Positions 19,987 through 43,115 of a stretch of DNA of 64,000 nucleotides are shown here, piece after piece. The stretch's first letter is position 1, and every line of letters starts with the position of its first letter. The notes beneath the pieces are model-generated. The model was not told the DNA's origin, made no database searches, and worked only from the letters and a program-made list of their open reading frames with translations. Source of the stretch: Candidatus Peregrinibacteria bacterium. Its GTDB lineage: Bacteria; Patescibacteriota; Gracilibacteria; Peribacterales; Peribacteraceae. The DNA lies in the NCBI GenBank assembly GCA_030649955.1, contig JAUSFD010000004.1, positions 1 to 64,000 on the forward strand. Direction: 5' to 3'. The position numbers and the translations under genes were made by a program.

Positions 19987-20107
19987 CGTAAAAACGCTCG
20001 CAGTGCGCTGCTCGCGTTCACGTGGCGCAGCCACCACTTGCTTCCCTGTGCACGAGAAGCGTTTTTTGCGTGTCACGTGGCGAGCGGAGCGAGCTTTACG
20101 TGACATG

Positions 20108-20167
20108 ATGTTTTGGGCCTAATGGACCCACATACAGAGGGGAAGCTGCGGTTCTGGGGTGACCCAC
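20108..20167 (+). repeat. 60-bp left-end repeat, copy 1
   Basis: It matches 37042-37101 at 59 of 60 positions (G/T difference at 20137). It can form two small hairpins with the same TGGG/CCCA stem, one with a 9-nt loop (20114-20130) and one with a GTGA tetraloop (20155-20166). It may be a recombinase-binding site or a structured RNA. Confidence 0.85.
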
Positions 20168-20363
20168 TCCCTATTAATCTGTCGCATTTGTATGGAAATT
20201 GGAGAAGTACTCGGAGATCAGCGTCAACAAATGTATTCCCCCTTTTCCTTGTGGAATGGCCAGGATCAGGTCATTGGCTGAGCAAAAACTGGGGTGTAGT
20301 CAGTGTGTGTGGTGACACCCATTCGTGGGAGGTGTAACATGCTGCCCTTTTTCCGCTCGCCGC

Positions 20364-21638: not shown

Positions 21639-21983
21639 ACTCGGTCTCACTTCGCCGGAACAAACCGCATGGAGAGTGAGTTCACACAGTGACGCGTGTT
21701 CTTCGCTGTCAGGTGTTCCCCTTGAACGCGGGCCAGCCGCAGCCGGCATCGAATTTGTCCATCGATCAATAGAGTTCTTCAAAACCCACTGGATTCCTCC
21801 GAATCGGCCTCCGACCCATCCTCCTCAGCCTACCCATTTCGACCCCTCGAAAGGGCTCTGAAAATCCACTCACGGGTTGGCTCTAGATCCACCCTCTCCG
21901 CCATCCGGCTTCGTCTAAGGACTACGGCTGCACACGACGAAGTCGCTCAAGCAGCGTACAAAGCTCGATGTGATGGAGCTTCC
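21639..21983. other. Intergenic region holding the right end of element 1
   Basis: No gene is seen in these 345 bases. The main content is the 113-bp right-end repeat (21791-21903). Beyond it, 21904-21950 holds a short palindromic stretch (GGCTTCGTC and GACGAAGTCGC) that resembles sequences bordering other elements. Confidence 0.5.
21791..21903 (+). repeat. 113-bp right-end repeat, copy 1
   Basis: It aligns without gaps to 42764-42876 with about 17 mismatches by eye. The last bases, CCCTCTCCGCCA, equal the 3' end of tRNA-Ser(GCU) at 19975-19986, as expected of an attachment-site duplication. Confidence 0.82.
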
Positions 21984-25411: not shown

Positions 25412-26161
25412 TCATTGTGCGAGACCTCCCTCCGTCGCTTGAGCGTCACGTCTGTACGCACACCATTCGCATTCCTCAGCCGTAGGTGGGAGCTGTGTGC
25501 GCTCCAGGCAGAGGCGTGCTTCGCGGAGAGCATCCCCTACCCAGGAAGCGTCGCCTGCATGCGCTAGCAACTGCACGGAGAACTCGAGCTTCGCATCGAA
25601 TGCCTCTCTATCCTTGAGCGCGTTGACGTAGACGAAGTACCCCGTTTTTGAGACACGATACCCCTTGGCTCGCAGGAGCCACTGGTACATCTCCAGTTGG
25701 CGCTTGTTGGCTGCTTGCCACTTCCCTTCGAGGGAAATCTCGCGATCCGTGCTCGTCGCTTTGTAATCAACCACGATGAGCTCTCCCTGCGGCGTCACCC
25801 ACACGTCGTCGACTGCTCCGTAGAAGAGGAAATTTGTCTCCGCATGGAGGACCTCGATACCGCGGAAGGGATCGCGCCACTCTGCGAGCTCAGGATGCTT
25901 GTACGGGATCGCATCGACCCCATACGTCTCCATGAGAGGGTGCTTGCGCTTCTCCGCGCGGTGGATGTCGAATTCCTTCTTGAGGAGAGTATCGACAGCG
26001 AGGTTCAAGGAGAATGCGGGGCCATCCGGCCTCCCTACTCCGAACTTACGATCCAGGGAGAAGCATCGTGGACACGAGAGGAAGAGCTCCACCTTCGACC
26101 TGCTCAAGCGGTAGGGCTCCGTCGATGCGGGGTCGAAGAGGTTTCTAGTACGCAGCGTCAT
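25412..26161 (-). CDS. PD-(D/E)XK nuclease, Cas4/RecB-like
   Basis: The 249-aa protein shows the nuclease motifs GAVDDVWV (metal-binding Asp) and IVVDYKAT (D-x-K) followed by QLEMYQWLL (motif QxxxY). Cysteines in SCPRCF near residue 30 and in LCLERTQLPPTAEECEWC near the C-terminus match the Cys placement of the 4Fe-4S cluster in Cas4/AddB-type nucleases. No cas genes or CRISPR array lie nearby, so a role in DNA repair or recombination is more likely than adaptation. It ends a minus-strand pair with the DUF4383 gene. Confidence 0.82.
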   Translation of the reverse strand: MTLRTRNLFDPASTEPYRLSRSKVELFLSCPRCFSLDRKFGVGRPDGPAFSLNLAVDTLLKKEFDIHRAEKRKHPLMETYGVDAIPYKHPELAEWRDPFRGIEVLHAETNFLFYGAVDDVWVTPQGELIVVDYKATSTDREISLEGKWQAANKRQLEMYQWLLRAKGYRVSKTGYFVYVNALKDREAFDAKLEFSVQLLAHAGDASWVGDALREARLCLERTQLPPTAEECEWCAYRRDAQATEGGLAQ

Positions 26162-26170
26162 AGGAAAAGA

Positions 26171-26226
26171 GGATTTTGATTAGGATTAGGGTTTGGTAGC
26201 CCAAATCCTAATCCAAATCCTAATCC
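26171..26226. terminator. TTAGGATTAGG-type word-repeat hairpin
   Basis: Repeats of GATTAGG and GGTTTGG on the left (26171-26197) face CCAAATCCTAATCC repeats on the right (26200-26226). It lies between the DUF4383 gene and the nuclease gene. The same words recur at 31161-31195 and 31585-31607. Confidence 0.55.
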
Positions 26227-26228
26227 AT

Positions 26229-26594
26229 TCAGACTCTCTCGTGATGGTACGTCCCGAAGCCAACGATGAGGCAGACCGCAGTGATCGCCGCATGCAGATA
26301 ATTGTCCGCCATGTTCACGGAGAAGTACCCGAGGATGTCGCCATCCATTGTGAATCCTAGGTACGTGACAAGACCGTACACTACCCCGAAGACGATGAGG
26401 AAGTGCCGCGCAGTCTGGTAGCCGCGTGAAGCCGCAACGAGGGCGACAATGCCGCTGACGAGGTGGATGACGTTGTGGACGAGATCAACCTGGAAAACGA
26501 GGAGCATGTCCTCTACGAAGAACCCGGCGACGCCAACGAGGGCAAGCACGAGACCGAGGATCCAGGTGAACGGGCTAACGAGATTCCTGTGCAT
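26229..26594 (-). CDS. DUF4383 family membrane protein
   Basis: The 121-aa protein has four membrane helices. The second begins with the DUF4383-like VHNVIHLVSGIVAL, and the last reads ITAVCLIVGFGTY before a short His-containing tail. Family members are small bacterial membrane proteins of unknown function. It is divergent from the desaturase gene, and a word-repeat hairpin separates it from the nuclease gene. Confidence 0.82.
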   Translation of the reverse strand: MHRNLVSPFTWILGLVLALVGVAGFFVEDMLLVFQVDLVHNVIHLVSGIVALVAASRGYQTARHFLIVFGVVYGLVTYLGFTMDGDILGYFSVNMADNYLHAAITAVCLIVGFGTYHHERV

Positions 26595-26760
26595 GGGAAG
26601 GAGGGGAAGGGATCTTCGGCGAAGGATAGCACACGCGTTCTACGCAGCGACATCACCGCGTATCCTTGCAACAGAATCCATCACCTCGTACGCAATGCTC
26701 CTCTCAGAGAGTCGACAAACTACTTTCGGCGACGGGGCGTTTCCTCTACCATTCGGCGGA

Positions 26761-28077
26761 ATGCAGGGAAACACGCAATTAACGCAGATGAACTATTACC
26801 CGCTCCTACGAGCGCAGATCGTGGAGAAGGGTCTCCTAGAGAAGAAACCGATCTCTGTCCTGCTCCACCTCATCTTGGCGGTTACTTTACTCGGTCTCTC
26901 CATTGTCTGTGCGACACTCTTCCCCCCGCTATCCACAGTGGTATTCGCCGTGGTCGGAGGGTTCGGCTCGCTCCTCCTGGGGTACGTCATGCACGATGGC
27001 GGACATCGACAGTGCAGCAGGGATGAACGAGTGAACAACCTCTTCGGATGGTGCGCAACGGTGTTCCTCGGCACATCCTTGATCGCCTGGATGGATGTGC
27101 ACAATGCGCACCACAATCAACCCAACCACGAGGACGACGATCCTGATGTGACTGTCCCTTTCGTAGCGTATTCACAGAAGCAAGTTCATTCCGCTCAGAG
27201 GAGACCCTACCGATGGTTCATCGCCCATCAGACGTGGTTCTACGTACTGCTCCTCTCGCTCGTTCCTTATTCAAAGAGGTACTACGGCCTGTACCAGCTC
27301 ATGTTGAAGAAGGAGAAGACCGCTGCTGTCTGCCTAGACCTTGCGATCGTTCTGCTCTGGCACGTGTACTACTACGGTGGATTGTGGTTCCTCTTTGGAT
27401 TCTGGAACATGCTCCTCTTCACGAGTATCCACCAAGCTGCACTCGGTATTTTCTTCGGCATGGTCTTTGCCCCCAATCACAAGGGAATGCCCATCATCGA
27501 GAGGGGCGAGCAGCTGGACTTCTTCACTCGCCAGGTGATCACCTCGAGGAATATGCACCCGAATCCCATTACAGATTTCCTCTACGGTGGATTGAATTAT
27601 CAGATTGAGCACCACCTTTTCCCGCACATGCCCCGCTACAACCTCGCACGCGCCAAGGTCGTCGTCGAGAAGTTCTGCAAAGAGCACGGCGTTCCGTACT
27701 ACGAGACGACCATCATGGACTCCTACCGCGAGGTGTACCGGAGCTTACGGGAGATTGCCGACTACGCCCGATCGCAACCAGCCACCGTCGCCTTCCTACG
27801 TGAGAAGCTCACATTCGCTATCGAGAATGCTCAGCAGGAGGTCGAGCAGTTCCTGGAGAAGTCCATCCACCAGCAACTCGACTCTGTGCAGTACGAGAGT
27901 CTCAAGCGCACCCACGATCTCGCTTGCGAGCGTTTAACCGCCATTCGCACCCGGATGATGCAGGCATCGGAGCAGCGCAAGGAACGCCTGCAGGAGTACT
28001 ACCGGGAAGTGCAAGCGCTTGTGCAGCGAATGCGCTCTGTGGCAAAGCAGCGAACTGGTGTACTCATCAAAGCATGA
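26761..28077 (+). CDS. Membrane fatty-acid desaturase (front-end type His boxes) with coiled-coil tail
   Basis: The first 320 or so residues form a di-iron acyl-lipid or acyl-CoA desaturase: HDGGH (box 1), HNAHH (box 2) and QIEHHLFP (box 3, whose Gln is typical of front-end Delta-6-like enzymes), with hydrophobic pairs between them. There is no cytochrome b5 domain. The final 110 or so residues are a charged helical coiled coil (for example LREKLTFAIENAQQEVEQFL), not part of the usual enzyme. It uses O2 and an electron donor, striking in a lineage mostly regarded as anaerobic. ATG 26761 has TACCAT 8 nt upstream; ATG 26695 is an alternative. Confidence 0.87.
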   Translation: MQGNTQLTQMNYYPLLRAQIVEKGLLEKKPISVLLHLILAVTLLGLSIVCATLFPPLSTVVFAVVGGFGSLLLGYVMHDGGHRQCSRDERVNNLFGWCATVFLGTSLIAWMDVHNAHHNQPNHEDDDPDVTVPFVAYSQKQVHSAQRRPYRWFIAHQTWFYVLLLSLVPYSKRYYGLYQLMLKKEKTAAVCLDLAIVLLWHVYYYGGLWFLFGFWNMLLFTSIHQAALGIFFGMVFAPNHKGMPIIERGEQLDFFTRQVITSRNMHPNPITDFLYGGLNYQIEHHLFPHMPRYNLARAKVVVEKFCKEHGVPYYETTIMDSYREVYRSLREIADYARSQPATVAFLREKLTFAIENAQQEVEQFLEKSIHQQLDSVQYESLKRTHDLACERLTAIRTRMMQASEQRKERLQEYYREVQALVQRMRSVAKQRTGVLIKA

Positions 28078-34199: not shown

Positions 34200-36476
34200 A
34201 TGTCAACCTCTCGACCAGATTCTGCTTCGCTTGTCGGCAAGAGTTTCGATGAAGTCCCCGCTTCTCTCCAACGCATCGTGTCCTCGCAAGGGAAGGTTGA
34301 GCTGGTGTGGATCGGACCCAAGGAGGGGAAGAAACTCGATGTGAAGGAGATGGATGCTTACCACTTGGCTCACCAAATCCTCGCACACCTCTGTATTCAG
34401 GCACCGACGAAACACAAGTCCGGTCACCCCGGTGGACCGCTCTCCGCATTCACCTTCAGCTACTTCATTCGGAAACGACGGGATTATAGAAAGGATCAGC
34501 CTCTCCGCATGAGCGCCGGGCATTTGAGCCTCCTCGCGTACGGACTCGAGTGGCTCTTCGGGAACGAGGGCAAGGACAAGCGTCTCGCCTCACCGCAGGC
34601 GATCATCGACGGCTTCCGGACTCCCGATGGACTCCCGGGTCATGCGGAAGCTGGCATTGGCACAATTCCGTTCGGGGCGGGTCCACTTGGTAAAGGAGTG
34701 AGCAATGCCCTTGGGGCGGCATTCGGACTCAAGTACTTGAAGAAGGACGGGAAGGTCGATGTGCTCATGGCCGATGGTGACTCACAGGAGGGGCAGATCA
34801 TGGAGGCATTCCGGCTCGCGTCGCATTTGGGAGTCGACAATCTCATTGTTCACGGTGACTTCAACGATATTCAGTTGAGTGACCTCCCCTCCCGCACCGT
34901 CGCGGCAGATTTCGCAGCGCTGGCCTCCGCGTGCGGATGGCAGGTGATTGAAGTGCAGAATGGGAATGATCCCGCGCAGGTGGTCGCAGCGCTCGATGCA
35001 GCCGATGCCTTCGTCGGGAAAGGCAGACCCATCTTCATCTGCTACTACACGACTATGGGCAACGGCGTCCCGTTCATGGAGGAGGGATCGAACACGGGGA
35101 AGCAGAACTTCCACGGTTCACCGCTCAAAGACGATGTCGCTGCGGAGGCGCTCAAGGGTTTACCACCTCTCGAAGAAGTCATGACGCAGTACGAACCGCA
35201 TCGCAAAGGGCTGAAGGGGAATTCCTGGAAAGAAATTGGTTCGCTTCCCCCTCTTCCGAAGATCCATCGCACGATCACCGCGGAGAAAGGAAGCGCTCGC
35301 TCGGAGTTTGGGTCCGTGCACCTCAAGGCGTTGATGCAGGTCGATTCGCGCATCGTCGTTCTCCACGCAGACCTCGCTGGTTCGGGTGGTTTCGATAAGG
35401 TTTCGAAGGAACTCCCTGGCCGCGTGATCAACGTCGGCGTCGCGGAGGCGAACATGTACATGATGGCAGCGGGAATGCGTCAGGTTGGATTGCTCCCCGT
35501 CACTTATACCTTCGCAGCATTCGGAACGAATGAAGCGCGGGCGAACGCGCGCCTCATCGATATCAACTGCGGTCACACGCACTGCGCCGTGATGCACGAC
35601 TGCACGCACGCGGGATTGAGCGTCGGGGAAGATGGAGAGACACATCAGGAGCGTAATTACCTCAATATTCCCCTCGATCGCACGCAGATCTGGATGCCAG
35701 CGGACAGCAATCAAGCTGCAGCGGCTGCCGAGCGCGGACTCTCGCTCATTGCAGAGGGAACGGAGAGCGTGTACGTCTTCTTCCCGCGGAGTAGTCACGA
35801 ACAGCTCAAGTCTCCGAGTGGGGAAGTTCTCTACGGTCCATCCTACATCTTCGACGGGCATATTGACCTCGTGCGTGGATCGGGGGATGTTCGTGATCAG
35901 GCGACGATCATCGCCGTGGGAATTCCTGTCCACGATGCGGTGATTGCAGCGGAGAGTCTCCTCGCCGAAGAGAAACTCAGCATCCGCGTGCTCAACGTCT
36001 CCTGCATTCGTCCGATCGATGCCGGCACGATCATCCAAGCAGCTCTCGAGACAGCACACCTGATCGTCGTAGAAGATCACCACAGCGAGGGGGGTCTCGC
36101 CACACAGGTGGCGGACATCATTGCAGACTTCCAACTCCCCTGCTCCCTCCGGCGTCTAGGCGTAAACCACTACTTCCCCTCTGCCACAGACAAGGATCTC
36201 AAATTCTTCGCAGGTTTGGATGCCGAGAGCATCAAGGATGCTGTCCAGGATGCAGTCGCGCACGAAGTGTGCGGAGGAGAGGACGCAATTGTCACTGCCA
36301 TCCATGCACTCTCCGATAACCGCAAGCAGAGCAGGTTCCGCTCCAGTATTGAGGCCTACATGGAACGCATTCGCGATGAGAAAGGGTACCTCGAGAAGCT
36401 TCGCCAGAGCTGGAAGAAGCGCGCATGTCCCAAGGACAAACTTCCCACGAATGAGCAACTGCGGGATCGTCTGTAG
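34200..36476 (+). CDS. tkt: Transketolase
   Basis: Transketolase moves two-carbon units between sugar phosphates using thiamine diphosphate. The 758-aa protein has both halves in one chain: KSGHPGGPLSAFTF, the ThDP motif ADGDSQEGQ...HGDFNDIQ, then the pyrimidine-binding domain with VGVAEANMYMMAAGM and HDCTHAGLSVGEDG, and the C-terminal lobe VVEDHHSEGGL. About 40 extra residues precede the catalytic part. A TACTCT box ends 8 nt before the ATG (leaderless). With tal and gnd it completes the pentose-phosphate route. Confidence 0.96.
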   Translation: MSTSRPDSASLVGKSFDEVPASLQRIVSSQGKVELVWIGPKEGKKLDVKEMDAYHLAHQILAHLCIQAPTKHKSGHPGGPLSAFTFSYFIRKRRDYRKDQPLRMSAGHLSLLAYGLEWLFGNEGKDKRLASPQAIIDGFRTPDGLPGHAEAGIGTIPFGAGPLGKGVSNALGAAFGLKYLKKDGKVDVLMADGDSQEGQIMEAFRLASHLGVDNLIVHGDFNDIQLSDLPSRTVAADFAALASACGWQVIEVQNGNDPAQVVAALDAADAFVGKGRPIFICYYTTMGNGVPFMEEGSNTGKQNFHGSPLKDDVAAEALKGLPPLEEVMTQYEPHRKGLKGNSWKEIGSLPPLPKIHRTITAEKGSARSEFGSVHLKALMQVDSRIVVLHADLAGSGGFDKVSKELPGRVINVGVAEANMYMMAAGMRQVGLLPVTYTFAAFGTNEARANARLIDINCGHTHCAVMHDCTHAGLSVGEDGETHQERNYLNIPLDRTQIWMPADSNQAAAAAERGLSLIAEGTESVYVFFPRSSHEQLKSPSGEVLYGPSYIFDGHIDLVRGSGDVRDQATIIAVGIPVHDAVIAAESLLAEEKLSIRVLNVSCIRPIDAGTIIQAALETAHLIVVEDHHSEGGLATQVADIIADFQLPCSLRRLGVNHYFPSATDKDLKFFAGLDAESIKDAVQDAVAHEVCGGEDAIVTAIHALSDNRKQSRFRSSIEAYMERIRDEKGYLEKLRQSWKKRACPKDKLPTNEQLRDRL

Positions 36477-36872: not shown

Positions 36873-36962
36873 GGTGGGATGGCCGAGTGGTTGAAGGCGC
36901 CTGACTTGAAATCAGGTAGACCCTCACGGGTCTCGTGGGTTCGAATCCCACTCCCACCGCCA
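36873..36962 (+). tRNA. tRNA-Ser (anticodon UGA)
   Basis: A 90-nt class II tRNA: acceptor GGTGGGA/TCCCACC, anticodon stem CCTGA/TCAGG with loop CTTGAAA (anticodon TGA), a long variable arm, T-arm GGGTTCGAATCCC and encoded CCA. A TACTCT box lies just upstream. Its last 24 bases plus the next base recur 77 bp downstream, at 37016-37040. Confidence 0.96.
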
Positions 36963-37040
36963 TTTGACAAGCTCATGGCTAGAACTGACTACCTTGTGCT
37001 GAGCTCGTCGAAGCAGTTCGAATCCCACTCCCACCGCCAT
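36939..37040 (+). repeat. 25-bp direct repeat of the tRNA-Ser(UGA) 3' end
   Basis: Copies at 36939-36963 (within the tRNA and one base beyond) and 37016-37040 are identical. Between them lie 52 bases with a hairpin of the GACAAGCTCA...GAGCTCGTC type. The second copy abuts the 60-bp left repeat of the island, as an attachment site would. Confidence 0.85.
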
Positions 37041-37041
37041 C

Positions 37042-37101
37042 ATGTTTTGGGCCTAATGGACCCACATACATAGGGGAAGCTGCGGTTCTGGGGTGACCCA
37101 C
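37042..37101 (+). repeat. 60-bp left-end repeat, copy 2
   Basis: It is identical to 20108-20167 except at one base. It follows directly after the duplicated tRNA-Ser 3' end. Confidence 0.85.
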
Positions 37102-37175
37102 CCCCTCCGTAGGGGCGCAGACCAGAAATGAGTTGGTAAATATGTGAGAATGGGGTTCTAACATTAACGGCCTAT

Positions 37176-37209: not shown

Positions 37210-37941
37210 ATGGCTAAAATCGTTTTAGTCGGCGAGCAACATGATGACCCATTCGTATCAGTACATGCTCAGGAAGTATTACGAGCTGAAAAGCCTGATG
37301 CAATTACACTTGAACATACATCTGTAGACCGGATCGCAAGTGCGTATCAAAGAATACAATTCTGGGAATTATTGTCTCACCACCAGGAAGATCCTAAACA
37401 ACTTGAAGAACTTGTGACTCAAAATTGCAAAAAAAACGGTATTTATCCTGCTGTAGCCGCAATCCGTGAATATGCATTAGCGAATAAAATTCCACTTAAC
37501 TATATTGGGCACCCTGACCAATCGAACATCGAAAGGCTCATTGCATTTTGTGATGCAAACATTCCACTCACAGTCCGTCGAGTGCCTGATCCTCAGACCC
37601 GCCCTTCTGCTGGCAATTTCGCAAACGCATTTATGTATTACAGAATCTGCCGCAAAAGAATTGCAAAAGGAACATTTGCTGGCATTCCGGAGATCGAACG
37701 TCCGATGACTCGAACACCAACTGGAGAAGTTCGCGATGTATATTCAGCACAGAGAATCCGGGAACTTGTAGCCAAGGGCGTGCAAAAACTTTGTCATTTC
37801 GGCGGGATGAAGCACCTGTTGGATGATGATCGAAAAGAGACACTCTATTCATTACTCAAAGATGAATTCGATATTGATCGAATAGCTATTGATCATCATT
37901 CGGAAGGAATAATGGCTGCATTGGCAAAATCTTGCAGATAG
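37210..37941 (+). CDS. TraB/ChaN-superfamily-like protein
   Basis: The 243-aa protein begins IVLVGEQHDDPFVSVH, followed by KPDAITLEHTSVDRI, the pattern of the TraB/PrgY-ChaN-EreA superfamily (a His after GE, then an acidic LE motif). Near the end LCHFGGMKHLLDD gives a further conserved His. Members include pheromone-shutdown proteins and putative metallo-enzymes; activity is unknown here. Base composition is distinctly AT-rich compared with the flanks, pointing to transfer. It is the first gene inside element 2, and its strong promoter touches the left-end region. Confidence 0.65.
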   Translation: MAKIVLVGEQHDDPFVSVHAQEVLRAEKPDAITLEHTSVDRIASAYQRIQFWELLSHHQEDPKQLEELVTQNCKKNGIYPAVAAIREYALANKIPLNYIGHPDQSNIERLIAFCDANIPLTVRRVPDPQTRPSAGNFANAFMYYRICRKRIAKGTFAGIPEIERPMTRTPTGEVRDVYSAQRIRELVAKGVQKLCHFGGMKHLLDDDRKETLYSLLKDEFDIDRIAIDHHSEGIMAALAKSCR

Positions 37942-38146
37942 TTGTGATCCACAGACAGTCCGCATAGCTGCCGGTAGCGAGTCGGAAACAGAATTTGAGG
38001 AGGTTCTGAATATCTTTCGGTGAAGATCGAAAGACAGCTCATGGATGCCTCTGTCCTGACACCGGAGCAGGAGCAGCAGATTCGGCGATCGCTGCGGCTT
38101 TCCAGATTGGACGACTCTATCCTACCGCCTTTGTAGATTTTTAGTG

Positions 38147-39472
38147 TCAGATTTTTTCCAAGTTGATCTTTCCATTTGCCAGACTGAGCTGGCTTTTCAG
38201 AGATTCGAGAATTTCTCTCTTCTCCTCTGCCGTCCCGTTCTTCAGGACGTACTTTGCGTATCCCCGCACATCCATTTTTGGAATCTTGATCGACTGATCC
38301 ATGCCGAGAACATCGGCGGTGAACTTGTTCATTCGCTCCACCTCCGATTCCAACTTTTTCCGCATGCCCGTTGTATCGAGGTCGATCTGATCGATTAGCT
38401 GGAGGAGCTGGCTGAGCAATTCGTCCTCCTGAACATACGGTTGTTTGCACGTCTGATCGAACCGCGAGCAGTGGTAGTAGACGTACTTCCGGATCGTGCC
38501 GTCCCGAAGTTGCTTGAACTTTTCTTCGGCAGTGACGCCGTTCCCGCAATTGCCGCATTTGAGCATCTTCGTGAAGGCAAACTCCTTCGATCCCCATCGC
38601 ATCTTCGGAGCGACTGCCAGCATCGACCGCACCTCCTCGAAGAGCTCCTTCGTGATGATCGGCTCATGGGTGCCCTTGTACCAGCTATCTACACCTTTCG
38701 GATATTCAAACATTCCGTAATAGAAGGGGTTATTGAGAATCCGATACACACCCGAGAGCGTGATTCGCTTGTCGCCTCTTGTTTTGAAATTCGCTTCTGT
38801 GTTCAACCATTTTAGGAGTGTCCGACCGCTCGCCCCTCGTTCTGCGACGAAGCGGAACAGCTGCTTGATCGTGGGCGCCCGAATTGGATCGATGACGATC
38901 TTGCCTTTGTTGCGATCCAGGCTCCTCTCGTTCAAATATCCAAGGGGAGCCACCCCGGGTCTGACGCCCAGCTCGCACTTGTTCTTGAGGCCGCGCTTCA
39001 CGTTGATTCCTCGATTGTCGTTCTCCAGTTTTGCCTGCGAGCAAAGGATCATGAGCAGAAATTTCTCGTTCGGGGAGTTCGTGAATTTCTGTCCCGTCGT
39101 TCGGATCTCCTTCAAAACACCTTGGTCCATCAGATCGACGAGAGAACCAAGGTCACCTGCATTCCTACTGAGTCTGTCCGGTGCCCACGTCACGATTCCT
39201 GTAAATGTGCCATTCCTGATATCTGCGATAAGTTGGCTGAAGACCGGACGTTGCCCGGAATCCTTGGCTGAATGGCTCTCGCGCCGGATCTCTGCAATGT
39301 CCAATCCGTCCCGCTTCGCGACCGCCAGCATCTCCTTGATTTGGGAGTCGATACTGAGTGCTTGCCGCTCGTCATCTTCGGAAGATTTTCTCGCGTAGAG
39401 GCAGTAACGGATCGGCTCAGTCTCGCTGCTTGTTTTCTGTTGTCGTTCTTCCAATGTTGCCGAAGGGTTCAT
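38147..39472 (-). CDS. Large serine recombinase (resolvase/invertase family)
   Basis: The 441-aa protein has a resolvase domain (about 20-165) with the catalytic Ser in YCLYARKSSEDD and the active-site stretch TWAPDRLSRNAGD. A recombinase domain follows (about 190-290, GVAPLGYLNE... and GVYRILNNPFYYG), then a zinc ribbon (CGNCGNG with a later Cys pair) and a C-terminal coiled coil. Such integrases join attP and attB without homology. ATG 39472 is the likely start; the frame before it is not protein-like. It is the probable integrase of element 2 and possibly mobilises element 1. Confidence 0.92.
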   Translation of the reverse strand: MNPSATLEERQQKTSSETEPIRYCLYARKSSEDDERQALSIDSQIKEMLAVAKRDGLDIAEIRRESHSAKDSGQRPVFSQLIADIRNGTFTGIVTWAPDRLSRNAGDLGSLVDLMDQGVLKEIRTTGQKFTNSPNEKFLLMILCSQAKLENDNRGINVKRGLKNKCELGVRPGVAPLGYLNERSLDRNKGKIVIDPIRAPTIKQLFRFVAERGASGRTLLKWLNTEANFKTRGDKRITLSGVYRILNNPFYYGMFEYPKGVDSWYKGTHEPIITKELFEEVRSMLAVAPKMRWGSKEFAFTKMLKCGNCGNGVTAEEKFKQLRDGTIRKYVYYHCSRFDQTCKQPYVQEDELLSQLLQLIDQIDLDTTGMRKKLESEVERMNKFTADVLGMDQSIKIPKMDVRGYAKYVLKNGTAEEKREILESLKSQLSLANGKINLEKI

Positions 39473-39575
39473 AGGGAAAGGGGTAAGAATGGACACATCA
39501 AGCAATGCCGCTACACACTCAAGAAGGCCAGGCAAAATCAGCGTAAACAGCCCAATTTCTCTGCAGTCAAACGCT

Positions 39576-41753
39576 TTAAAACATCGCCAATTGTCCTTCG
39601 GGAATAGCCTGTTTCATCCCACCCATTCTTTCCTGTCGAATTTCGAGCTGAAGTGTTCGATAGGTACGAAGGCGCTGGAAGTGCATCCCTTTGAGCATGG
39701 GCACATCGAAGTCCACATAGTCATAGACGTGCGCGTGCGACTTGCCCGGAGCAGTTCTTTGTACTCGTCCGATGTACTGCACGAGTTTCCCCTTCCAAGA
39801 GAATGGAAAACTGAAAAAGAGATGCGTTACCTCAGGCCAGTCGAATCCTTCACCGATGAGTTTGCCAGTCGCGATAAGAAGCTGAAAACGCTCCTGACGG
39901 ATACGCTGACTCAAACGCAGGCGATTGCCTTTGGTCATTGTTCCTTCCGCAACCGAACCGTGTATGCCCTTCGTCCGCCCCCGAATCATCTGGAAGAGCG
40001 TATGGCAGTGCTCCACACGCTCGGAGAGAACGAGACACTTTTGACCAGCCTCAAGCAGCGAAGCGACATCGGAGGCAATCTGGATATTACGTTCAGTATT
40101 CCGCATGATCCGTTCACCGATCTGGAAGAAGTCGAGTCCTTGTTCCTGTACTCGGAAAGTAGTGCCGCGTATGTGCACAGTGAGTGGCACTGTTGGCCCA
40201 TTTTCTAATGGACCAATTGTCTCGGCTGCTTTCATCTTCACGACAGGACCAACCGAATACACCATCAATCGTTCCAGTTTATCTTTCCGATACGGTGTCG
40301 CCGTGAGACCGAGGACATACGGAGCAGCAAACTGCCGCACGACAGAAAGAAAAGTAGTTGCCGGGATGTGGTGACACTCGTCGATCACGAGACAGCCGAA
40401 GGTATTCTTGATTTCCGTAAGATCTCTGCGCACGAGAGTTTGGTGGGATGCGATGGTGATCAGTCTCCCGATCTTCCATTTGCCATCACCGATGATGCCA
40501 ATATCTCCTTTCTTCAAAACGAAGTTTTTCTCAATGCACTTCTTCCATTGTTGGAGCAGTTCTCTCGTGTGCGCGATGACGAGTGCGGGTTGTCTGCGCT
40601 TGATGATGTACTGAAGAGCAACGACGGTCTTTCCAAATCCGGGCTGAGCCTCCAGAACGCAACGATCGTGTTCCAGGAGTTTCCTGAGCATGCGCTCCTG
40701 ATCTGGACGAAGTTCGATTGAGGAGGACATTCGCACTCCTTTGATCGTTTGCCGACGATCTTCGATGTGAACAGTGACACTATTTTCCTCAGCCCAGCTT
40801 TTGATCTCCTCAAGAAGTCCTGCCGGAATGACGATGCCATCCTCGTACTTTCGCAGAGCATAGATCCAACGCCTTGTTTGCCAGTTAGAGTAGCCGAGGC
40901 GCTCGTTCATCATGTGTTCAGGATTTCGGAAGACGAGCTTCTTTCGGAGGAATTTGAACAGGCTATCAGGCAATGCATGACTCGGGATGAAGATTTCACT
41001 TTCAAGGATGACTGTTGCAATGGGCTGAGTAATCGTCGCAACTCGATCAAAGACTTTCTCTGTCGTCGGGTCGCCTTCTTCTCCTTCGATGCGCGGAATT
41101 CCTGCTATCAATTGATCGACGATCTTTTCCGTAACCCGAGTGAGCGATGCAAGATATTGCCACTGATTAATTACAGTTTTTCCGTCGCTGTTGATAAAAC
41201 AGCTGTTGCCATCAAGAATATGGGACCCGCTCAGTGGCAGTGCGATGAGATTTCCGAGGCCTTTACCTGCGTGTTCGTCTTGGCTCGGAAAAAGTCGGTC
41301 GAATGTCGATTGTCTGGTGATCCCTGCCTCCGTGAGCAGGTATTTACCCCATTGCCGTGCCTTCCATGCAGGAAGTGCTGTATCAAAGAAGAACCAGACG
41401 TGACCTCCATTTCCCGATTTCGACCGCTCAAGTGCGAATGGAATGCCATGCCTTGCGACGACGCGAGCCAGAAGATTTACTTCAGCGAGCCACTGATCTC
41501 CATCAAAATCCACGACAAGAAAATGCGTCGTATTATCTTTCTGCAACGGATAAATGCCAATGAGAGCATCCCCCCGAAGATGCGATTGAATGACTTCATC
41601 GGTGAGTGGAGCATATTCACCGGTGTGAAATTTGGCCGGTGCGTAACCAAATTTCCCAGTTTTGTTACTCGACCAAAATCGCGCGAAAACATCATCTCGT
41701 CCCCGGAAAAGAGATCGGAACAGCCGCAGTTGATCGCTCAAAACGTCAGCCAT
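39576..41753 (-). CDS. Fused archaeo-eukaryotic primase and SF2 helicase (TOTE-conflict-like)
   Basis: The 725-aa protein joins two enzymes. Residues of about 8-215 form an archaeo-eukaryotic primase-like domain with FRSLFRGRDDVFARFW, the metal motif DFDGD (82-86), SGNGGH (113-118) and GNLIALPLSG, matching the primase of TOTE conflict systems. Residues of about 340-700 form an SF2 helicase: Walker A QPGFGKT (370-376), DECH (458-461), TATP (484-487) and QYIGRVQR near 660. TOTE enzymes are thought to act against invading nucleic acids; that is inferred from the family. An extended -10 (TGG-TAGAAT) ends 8 nt before the ATG and faces the antitoxin promoter. Confidence 0.83.
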   Translation of the reverse strand: MADVLSDQLRLFRSLFRGRDDVFARFWSSNKTGKFGYAPAKFHTGEYAPLTDEVIQSHLRGDALIGIYPLQKDNTTHFLVVDFDGDQWLAEVNLLARVVARHGIPFALERSKSGNGGHVWFFFDTALPAWKARQWGKYLLTEAGITRQSTFDRLFPSQDEHAGKGLGNLIALPLSGSHILDGNSCFINSDGKTVINQWQYLASLTRVTEKIVDQLIAGIPRIEGEEGDPTTEKVFDRVATITQPIATVILESEIFIPSHALPDSLFKFLRKKLVFRNPEHMMNERLGYSNWQTRRWIYALRKYEDGIVIPAGLLEEIKSWAEENSVTVHIEDRRQTIKGVRMSSSIELRPDQERMLRKLLEHDRCVLEAQPGFGKTVVALQYIIKRRQPALVIAHTRELLQQWKKCIEKNFVLKKGDIGIIGDGKWKIGRLITIASHQTLVRRDLTEIKNTFGCLVIDECHHIPATTFLSVVRQFAAPYVLGLTATPYRKDKLERLMVYSVGPVVKMKAAETIGPLENGPTVPLTVHIRGTTFRVQEQGLDFFQIGERIMRNTERNIQIASDVASLLEAGQKCLVLSERVEHCHTLFQMIRGRTKGIHGSVAEGTMTKGNRLRLSQRIRQERFQLLIATGKLIGEGFDWPEVTHLFFSFPFSWKGKLVQYIGRVQRTAPGKSHAHVYDYVDFDVPMLKGMHFQRLRTYRTLQLEIRQERMGGMKQAIPEGQLAMF

Positions 41754-41788
41754 GGCTTGAAATTCTACCAGATTTACAACGATTTGTG

Positions 41789-41797
41789 TGCTATAAT
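41789..41797 (+). promoter_or_regulatory. Extended -10 promoter of the antitoxin-like gene
   Basis: TGC-TATAAT is a full-consensus extended -10. The ATG at 41804 follows by 6 nt, giving a leaderless mRNA. A divergent extended -10 for the primase-helicase lies at 41762-41770. Confidence 0.7.
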
Positions 41798-41803
41798 AGG
41801 CTC

Positions 41804-41989
41804 ATGACGTTCGGTACAGGCACCCGACTCCGGCAAATCTCCCCTGCACTCAGAAATGAGGATGCTCGTCATCAGATGATTCTGCGATGCGTCGAGAATA
41901 ATAGTGTCATTGAAGGACTCCCCCGATTCACAAAAAAGATGAAGCAGGAGTGCTTACAAGATCTTAAGGAGATCGCTTCGAAGCATTAA
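41804..41989 (+). CDS. Putative FicA/VbhA-like antitoxin (61 aa)
   Basis: The small protein has a central helix reading CVENNSVIEGLPRFTKKM, close to the inhibitory segment of class I Fic antitoxins such as VbhA (SQRLEGLEP) and YhfG (SRRLEGVEM). There, S/T-xxx-E-G inserts a Glu into the Fic ATP site. Here Asn occupies the S/T position. It overlaps the 3' end of the fic gene by 26 bp in convergent orientation, whereas known pairs are in one operon with the antitoxin first. An extended -10 promoter gives a leaderless mRNA. The call is inferred from motif and neighbour. Confidence 0.62.
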   Translation: MTFGTGTRLRQISPALRNEDARHQMILRCVENNSVIEGLPRFTKKMKQECLQDLKEIASKH

Positions 41990-42596
41990 GAGCCGATGTA
42001 ATCATTGAAGCCATTGGATCGTAGTTCTGGAGTATCGCTGCTTTTGCGGCTTCGATATAGCGATCTCGACCGGCATCCGATGCATCGTAGATGAGAGCGA
42101 GGCGACCTGTCTGCACGGCCAGCAAATCCGTGGCAAGTTTGATAGTGCGAGCATTGCCCTCACGAAACGGGTGTATGGCGAGAAATTCTCCTTGAATGTG
42201 CCCGACCGCCTTGCAGAAAAGATCGTCCGCAACAAGTGAAGTTGCCGGATATTTTGAAAGCACATCTCGTTCAAATGCGCTCATTGCTTCGTCGAGATAA
42301 TCTGGGGGTGGCCAAGCAGTTCCTTCTTTGCTGATCGATACGGTTCTCCATCGACCAGCCCACCCATACAGATCGCTGAAAATGCGGCCATGAACATACT
42401 GAATCAATTCGGATGAGATGGGAGTGTCTGATCGCATCTCATCGAGAAGCAATTCGTATGCTCTGGCCAAAGACTTTTCTTCTTCGACGAATAGGTCATG
42501 CAAATCAACAATGTCCTTCTTGTTCTTCAGTACTTTCTGCTCCAAATCCATGTACTCGTTCTCACTGCCGCCGACCGAATATCGAGATGCTGTCAT
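41964..42596 (-). CDS. fic: Fic-family AMP-transferase (class I type)
   Basis: The 210-aa protein has the Fic core with the complete motif HPFREGNART (142-151), which binds ATP phosphates and deprotonates the target hydroxyl. Its N-terminus (SRYSVGGSENEYMDLEQKVL...NKKDI) matches the class I/cell-filamentation Fic group. No S/T-xxx-E-G inhibitory helix is seen at either end, so a separate antitoxin is expected; the convergent 61-aa gene fits. Fic enzymes usually AMPylate proteins such as gyrase. TATAGT ends 7 nt before the ATG (leaderless). Confidence 0.92.
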   Translation of the reverse strand: MTASRYSVGGSENEYMDLEQKVLKNKKDIVDLHDLFVEEEKSLARAYELLLDEMRSDTPISSELIQYVHGRIFSDLYGWAGRWRTVSISKEGTAWPPPDYLDEAMSAFERDVLSKYPATSLVADDLFCKAVGHIQGEFLAIHPFREGNARTIKLATDLLAVQTGRLALIYDASDAGRDRYIEAAKAAILQNYDPMASMITSALNASKRSP

Positions 42597-43115
42597 ACAA
42601 GCAACTATACTGCTAGAAACAGCTGATTGCTCGTGATTTTTATCATGTGAGACACACCCCTGTTGTACTGTCTCATTTGTCTCATTCGAGCCCCTCAGTA
42701 CTGTTCGGATTGTTCGGTTTACCCCCTCGAAGTACTGTCCAATTCACCCCCCTCAAACCTGCCGAATTCCTCCAAATTGGCCTCCGACCCACCCTCCTCA
42801 GCCTACCCACTTCGCCCCTTCGAAAGGGCCCCGAAAAATCTCTCACAGGTTGGTTCTGGACTCACCCTCTCCGCCAGCCTTCGCATTCTGCGGAACGCTA
42901 CGGCCGGCGGGCCCCCATCCTGGTAATTTTGCACCGAAGGCTGTAGGACCCGAAGTGTCTCCTTTGGAGCCGTAGCTCCAGAGAGCGGAGGCTGGCTTCT
43001 TCCATTCGCACTGTTTCAGCGCTACGCCGCGATGGCGGTGACGATGCACATTTTAGGATGTCCATAGAGTAGTGGTAGATCTGAGCAGTGTCTGTTAGGC
43101 TAGTGCTCAAGACAT
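42597..43115. other. Intergenic region with right end of element 2
   Basis: No gene is evident. 42650-42760 holds repeated GTACTGT words (four spaced copies) and C-rich blocks, followed by the 113-bp right repeat. 42877-43115 contains a small hairpin (GGAGC-CGTA-GCTCC, near 42965) and the leader of the SLH gene. Confidence 0.5.
42764..42876 (+). repeat. 113-bp right-end repeat, copy 2
   Basis: It aligns without gaps to 21791-21903 at about 85% identity by eye. It ends in CCCTCTCCGCCA, which matches the 3' end of tRNA-Ser(GCU) better than that of tRNA-Ser(UGA). Confidence 0.82.

Follow-up and report, generated by a model that had tools for sequence, protein, structure and literature searches.

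A probable small integrative element at a serine tRNA gene, carrying a TOTE primase-helicase and a candidate Fic-antitoxin conflict module

Class I Fic proteins carry the motif HxFx(D/E)GN(G/A)R, have no inhibitory helix of their own, and are accompanied by a small partner with the motif (S/T)xxxE(G/N), the inhibitory-motif position in Fic antitoxins being usually S or T. In such pairs, the antitoxin gene usually comes first and both genes run in one direction. Proteins that fuse a primase to a helicase typically serve in replication, and tRNA genes are not usual targets of serine integrases. Hundreds of homologues of the TOTE primase-helicase, an AEP primase fused to an SF2 helicase, are found in bacteria, and our literature search for the TOTE system by name retrieved no paper describing it. 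Regarding integration sites, a mycobacterial survey mapped tRNA sites used by tyrosine integrases, with serine-integrase elements inserting elsewhere (PMC10654092).

In this work, we analysed a stretch of 64,000 nucleotides from a Candidatus Peregrinibacteria genome (hereafter the window, to which all unprefixed coordinates refer), in which the original prediction had proposed a mobile defence island with a TraB-like protein, a serine recombinase, a TOTE-like primase-helicase and a Fic pair. Our results lead us to favour, with moderate confidence, a small integrative element at a tRNA-Ser gene, whose TOTE primase-helicase and Fic-antitoxin pair would constitute a conflict module.

Boundaries of the element and its relatives in the same genome

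The features that delimit the island, and one related element in the window, are the following:

36873..36962, + strand: tRNA-Ser(tga), the target gene, found with ARAGORN; the element begins past its CCA end
37016..37040, + strand: 25-nt repeat of the end of the tRNA-Ser region, 25/25 identical (repeat search), abutting the conserved left end
37038..37106, no strand: left end of the element, with copies of 96% and 95% identity at two other tRNA-Ser genes
42648..42876, no strand: right end of the element, terminating in CACCCTCTCCGCCA
42877..43036, no strand: host flank, homologous to the sequence directly 3' of tRNA-Ser(cga) on contig C28 of the same genome
19987..21903, no strand: element A, at tRNA-Ser(gct), with left and right ends as in the island and one 437-aa ORF, without recombinase

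The island extends from position 36963 (or 37041, allowing for a 77-bp duplication) to 42876, spanning about 5.9 kb with a GC content of 0.44-0.52, against mostly 0.54-0.60 in its surroundings; the 37210-42596 of the original prediction corresponds to the gene span, the element itself being larger and reaching 42876. Its left-end sequence (69 bp) begins right after the second 25-nt tRNA copy, and is repeated 3' of tRNA-Ser(gct) (96%, window 20104-20172) and 3' of tRNA-Ser(gga) on contig C30 (95%, G000:C30:27247-27310). The copy at 37016..37040 probably represents the original junction, which a small insertion or duplication later shifted by 77 bp. We also considered whether the two 25-nt repeats delimit a single element, and rejected this reading because the conserved left end starts with the second copy, 5.8 kb from the right end.

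At the opposite terminus, the last 6 nt of tRNA-Ser (CCGCCA) occupy 42871-42876. Over 125 bp, the right end of the island (to 42876) and that of element A (window 21782-21906) share 83% identity, and both terminate in CCCTCTCCGCCA, a tRNA-Ser 3' end. Further, portions of the right end are kept in sister elements L251, L252, L253, L254, L257, L258 and L260. The serine recombinase of the island may perhaps act in trans to mobilise element A. A remnant of a third element (element C) was observed at tRNA-Ser(gga), at about 25900-27310 on its contig (L217, G000:C30:20000-36000); it consists of the left end and a C-terminal fragment of the recombinase, with 67% identity.

The tRNA-Ser(cga) gene on contig C28 is apparently unoccupied, and its 3' flank matches the right flank of the island, allowing an empty-site comparison by paralogy and not at the same locus. 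A same-locus empty site was sought in three related genomes (G012, G013 and G018), but in none of them does the SLH-domain gene adjoin tRNA-Ser(tga) in the order found here; therefore, the paralogous site on C28 constitutes the sole empty-site comparison. Both marks of an element integrated at a tRNA site, namely repetition of the tRNA 3' end at the far end and an empty site, the latter by paralogy only, were thus found. The recombinase-bearing ends originally predicted are hereby sharpened to precise ends at tRNA-Ser(tga) and 42876, and the proposed logic of a mobile island is strongly supported by these ends, by the three tRNA-Ser genes at which copies occur and by the defence genes in sister loci described below.

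Presumed integrase family and cargo of the sister loci

The island contains five ORFs, all of them intact, and those of known families have conserved motifs:

37210..37941, + strand: cargo ORF, 243 aa, TraB/ChaN-like by motifs only (LVGEQHD, LEHT, HFGGMKH)
38147..39535, - strand: large serine recombinase, presumed integrase (Pfam, phrog_95; homologues of 82-91% identity in sister elements)
39576..41753, - strand: AEP-TOTE primase with XPB/UvsW/RadD-like SF2 helicase, 725 aa (Pfam, PDB, motifs)
41804..41989, + strand: putative Fic antitoxin, 61 aa, motif ENNSVIEGL, with homologues in the same arrangement
41964..42596, - strand: Fic protein, VbhT-like, 210 aa, motif HPFREGNAR (Pfam, PADLOC, PDB)

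The product of 38147..39535 combines the Resolvase (4e-20), Recombinase (2e-14) and Zn ribbon (1e-7) domains of a large serine recombinase, in agreement with the predicted function. Four related genomes have homologues of 82-91% identity and further genomes have homologues of about 60%, and in several related genomes they are located 3' of tRNA-Gln or tRNA-Glu, the recombinase gene being convergent with the tRNA in all the cases read. Both ends could be read in five elements, and in each of them the right end terminates in the final 6-12 nt of its own target tRNA (Ser, 6 nt in the island and 12 nt in element A; Gln, 8 and 6 nt; Glu, 6 nt), the right ends of L253, L254 and L260 matching their own tRNA over 6-8 nt. 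This recombinase family most likely targets tRNA genes, with the island enzyme acting as the integrase at its tRNA.

A PADLOC profile scan of genes from five sister loci revealed diverse defence functions. In L254, the genes of a type I restriction-modification system (HsdR, HsdS and HsdM) and a SoFic protein (8e-116) lie between the tRNA and the right end. CBASS cyclases were found in L261 and L265, the former with an additional SAVED-type effector, and a type III restriction enzyme in L256; as the right ends of these three loci were not read, their defence genes are placed near the recombinase and are not proven to lie inside the element. The two L253 proteins scanned against PADLOC gave no match. 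The SoFic gene within the type I cluster (L254:5934-7112), on a tRNA-Gln element, represents a second case of Fic in the same element family. By ORF reading, L255, L256, L258, L259, L260 and L264 are prophage-like, with the recombinase family plus terminase-like, ParB-like and DNA-methylase-like genes, and L256 and L264 also carry type III restriction-modification-like genes. Several of the recombinase homologues of about 60% identity belong to prophage-like loci.

The ORF at 37210..37941 had been described as TraB-like from its motifs, a reading that found no confirmation: searches of Pfam, PADLOC, PHROGs and NCBIfam profiles gave no match at E<0.1; no homologue was found in the PDB, plasmids, viral contigs and 380 genomes of the phylum; and a single-sequence AlphaFold model had a pLDDT of 41, with an uninformative fold. 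The gene is a singleton in this phylum sample, and no support emerged for any role of a TraB/ChaN-like protein.

Primase-helicase, Fic pair and recurrent neighbours

The fusion of an AEP primase with an SF2 helicase that had been read from the letters was confirmed by profile searches and conserved motifs. The primase half matches the TOTE primase profile PF22548 over residues 8-214 (E 2.4e-67; 227 bits against a curated cut-off of 27), and the helicase half matches ResIII (PF04851, 5e-24) and Helicase_C (4e-10); matches in the PDB correspond to the primase chains 7nqd/7nqf (4e-13) and to XPB chains. In an alignment with 6-7 relatives of 34-69% identity, primase residues D82, D84 and S113-H118 are conserved, as are the helicase motifs GKT, DECHH and QYIGRVQR-type. 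The protein therefore displays the features of AEP-TOTE members, i.e., DxD and SGNGxH in the primase and, in the SF2 helicase fused to it, Walker A, a DEAH-like box and motif VI. PADLOC single-gene matches in the island were PrimPol and PDC-S04.

The distribution of TOTE is patchy: of 192 genomes of the class, 9 have the gene. A search of viral contigs gave no TOTE match when the window protein alone was the query; when the query was an alignment, ten contigs passed the primase-domain search. Similarity to phage DNA helicases was seen in the helicase half (phrog_16, 1e-62, and phage records), and no annotated phage record matched at least 80% of the fusion.

The Fic identity that had been proposed also stood, with matches to PF02661 (3.8e-12) and to PADLOC PDC-S04 (6e-51) in addition to the HPFREGNAR motif; its relatives in the PDB include 8wt0 (Fic, 2e-15) and VbhT (3zcb, 1.5e-12). 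The small antitoxin candidate was upheld as a gene (41804-41989, + strand), being conserved together with Fic in three further genomes (G002, G008 and G026; loci L268, L269 and L014/L270), with a truncated Fic in G026. A TATAAT sequence lies just 5' of its ATG (41792-41797), and the antitoxin and Fic genes are on opposite strands, tail to tail, overlapping by 26 bp at the Fic 3' end. The antitoxin motif is (N/D)SVIEG, with N or D four residues before Glu, and the Fic motif is present; the 61-aa protein is a putative inhibitor of Fic. In more distant Fic relatives of the class (L271-L277), the antitoxin lies 5' of Fic on the same strand, i.e., in the usual co-directional order. In G002 (L268, contig C75), the antitoxin-Fic pair adjoins a transketolase fragment, of which a full-length homologue is located at window 34200-36476.

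In order to place the pairing of TOTE with Fic in context, 97 TOTE loci were compared, 52 of which have a same-strand gene of at least 100 aa at most 350 bp upstream. That gene is a Fic in 9 of the 52, against 2 of 402 other genes from the same loci (Fisher p 8e-8), these proportions being approximate owing to greedy ORF gene calls and to loci chosen as best matches to a Patescibacteria-centred alignment. When one opposite-strand case is added, the Fic label requires nine changes on the tree, and the pairing was thus gained or lost repeatedly, in distant bacteria, rather than inherited from one event. A Pfam scan of upstream genes (n=50) gave Fic 9, HATPase_c_4 6, AbiEii 5, DUF4143 4, AlbA 4, RhuM 3 and HipA 2, so that no more than about one in six of these partners is Fic; Fic was not listed among the 25 downstream neighbours scanned. 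Conflict or toxin genes hence adjoin TOTE genes, as in a TOTE conflict system, and both the association of homologues with Fic and that with other toxin or defence families (AbiEii, AlbA/Schlafen, DUF4143, RhuM and HipA) hold as anticipated. The combination of TOTE, Fic and the TraB-like protein as a single obligatory system is unsupported, the last being a singleton and Fic one of several TOTE partners.

In G026, the closest relative with an intact TOTE (about 70% identity), Fic is not directly upstream of the intact gene, and the antitoxin-Fic pair is next to a second TOTE gene reduced to a short 5' fragment, so the order TOTE-antitoxin-Fic is not unique to the island copy. Since the antitoxin gene on the opposite strand lies between them, TOTE and Fic need not share a transcript.

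Two further observations were made near these loci. In G026, inspection by eye places an Avd-like small ORF adjacent to a reverse transcriptase (L014:2609-4022), downstream of ORFs similar to variable proteins, likely a diversity-generating retroelement close to the TOTE locus. The product of window positions 33140-33505 matches the four-helix 23S rRNA intervening-sequence family (PF05635, 2e-37) and, more weakly, bAvd-like proteins; no reverse transcriptase was noticed nearby.

Alternative readings and comparison with known systems

In the mechanism that we propose, the serine recombinase would most likely insert the element at the CCA of the serine tRNA 3' end, leaving the tRNA intact. Fic would most likely AMP-modify a host protein and arrest growth once the antitoxin is lost or titrated, an arrest that most likely stabilises the island and could serve abortive defence. 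The primase-helicase, in turn, would most likely act on DNA that is foreign or being replicated, which it would unwind and prime, thereby interfering with it or sensing it. The module probably serves antiviral defence, acting on phage, and TOTE and Fic may be functionally coupled. Against the favoured reading weigh the missing Fic directly upstream of the intact TOTE in G026, the modest share of Fic among TOTE partners, the antitoxin gene placed between TOTE and Fic, the N or D in the antitoxin motif, and the fact that tRNA genes are not the usual targets of serine integrases.

The main alternative is that the two are independent passengers, the Fic-antitoxin pair being an addiction module and TOTE a separate defence or maintenance enzyme with no functional link to it. 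This is nearly as likely as the coupling, and we rate it only slightly below even; because the island holds under both, the confidences of the two readings overlap and need not add up to one. Several features speak for separate passengers: the pair comes with a promoter-like site of its own and an antitoxin on the opposite strand, in G008 it adjoins a DUF4065-like gene with no TOTE seen within the short locus read, the intact TOTE of G026 has no adjacent Fic, and TOTE partners are variable. However, the nine tree changes for Fic directly upstream of TOTE exceed the expectation for neighbouring passengers of mobile DNA, and in G026, too, a TOTE 5' fragment adjoins the pair. We also consider, tentatively and with less confidence, a broader version of the coupling, in which TOTE would form the invariable core of a modular defence system, the effector slot directly upstream being exchangeable (Fic, AbiEii, AlbA/Schlafen, DUF4143, RhuM or HipA), and the island would be the Fic version, with a convergent antitoxin, on a serine-integrase element specialised in tRNA 3' ends.

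It is unlikely that TOTE is the element's own enzyme for replication or repair, comparable to the primase-helicases of plasmids and phages, rather than a defence protein. Such a role would fit the phage-like helicase half and the architecture of the fusion, which is typical of replication proteins, but we noticed no TOTE gene in any sister element read, the gene is missing from most relatives, annotated phage records fail to match at least 80% of the fusion, and its neighbours are toxin and defence families instead of replication genes. Very unlikely, in our view, is a degraded, non-functional island with genes accumulated by chance in a tRNA hot spot: the 77-bp duplication at the left end and the decayed appearance of elements A (without recombinase) and C (with a recombinase fragment only) point in that direction, but the intact state of 5/5 island ORFs and the motifs kept by the known families argue against it.

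The favoured reading, an integrative element with a conflict module, thus describes a precisely bounded mobile element, with recognised defence genes in sister loci, in a hard-to-culture lineage. It connects these primase-helicases, a family yet to be characterised, with a toxin slot that has been recruited repeatedly, making the role of TOTE testable gene by gene, and the tRNA-targeting serine recombinase family is unusual and of possible use as an integration tool.

Among described systems, the FicT/FicA and VbhT/VbhA pairs share with the island the HPFxxGNAR Fic core and a small partner with xxIEG, VbhT being among the nearest solved relatives; in contrast to them, the island antitoxin is on the opposite strand with a tail-to-tail overlap, and N/D replaces S/T. 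The primase-helicase has the domain order and key motifs of TOTE AEP primase (PF22548)-SF2 helicase proteins, to which it is assigned by profile and motifs. Its Fic partner is VbhT-like, has 210 aa and comes with an antitoxin of its own; the Fic proteins read next to TOTE in other loci are larger (344-498 aa). CRISPR-associated PrimPol proteins (NF040561; 7nqd/7nqf) have a homologous primase domain (9e-34 and 4e-13, respectively), but no CRISPR or Cas neighbours were noticed in the island, which carries the helicase fusion instead. Finally, like genomic and defence islands at tRNA genes, the island inserts at a tRNA 3' end with the tRNA preserved and has sister loci with defence genes; unlike the mycobacterial tRNA sites, which are used by tyrosine integrases (PMC10654092), its presumed integrase is a large serine recombinase.
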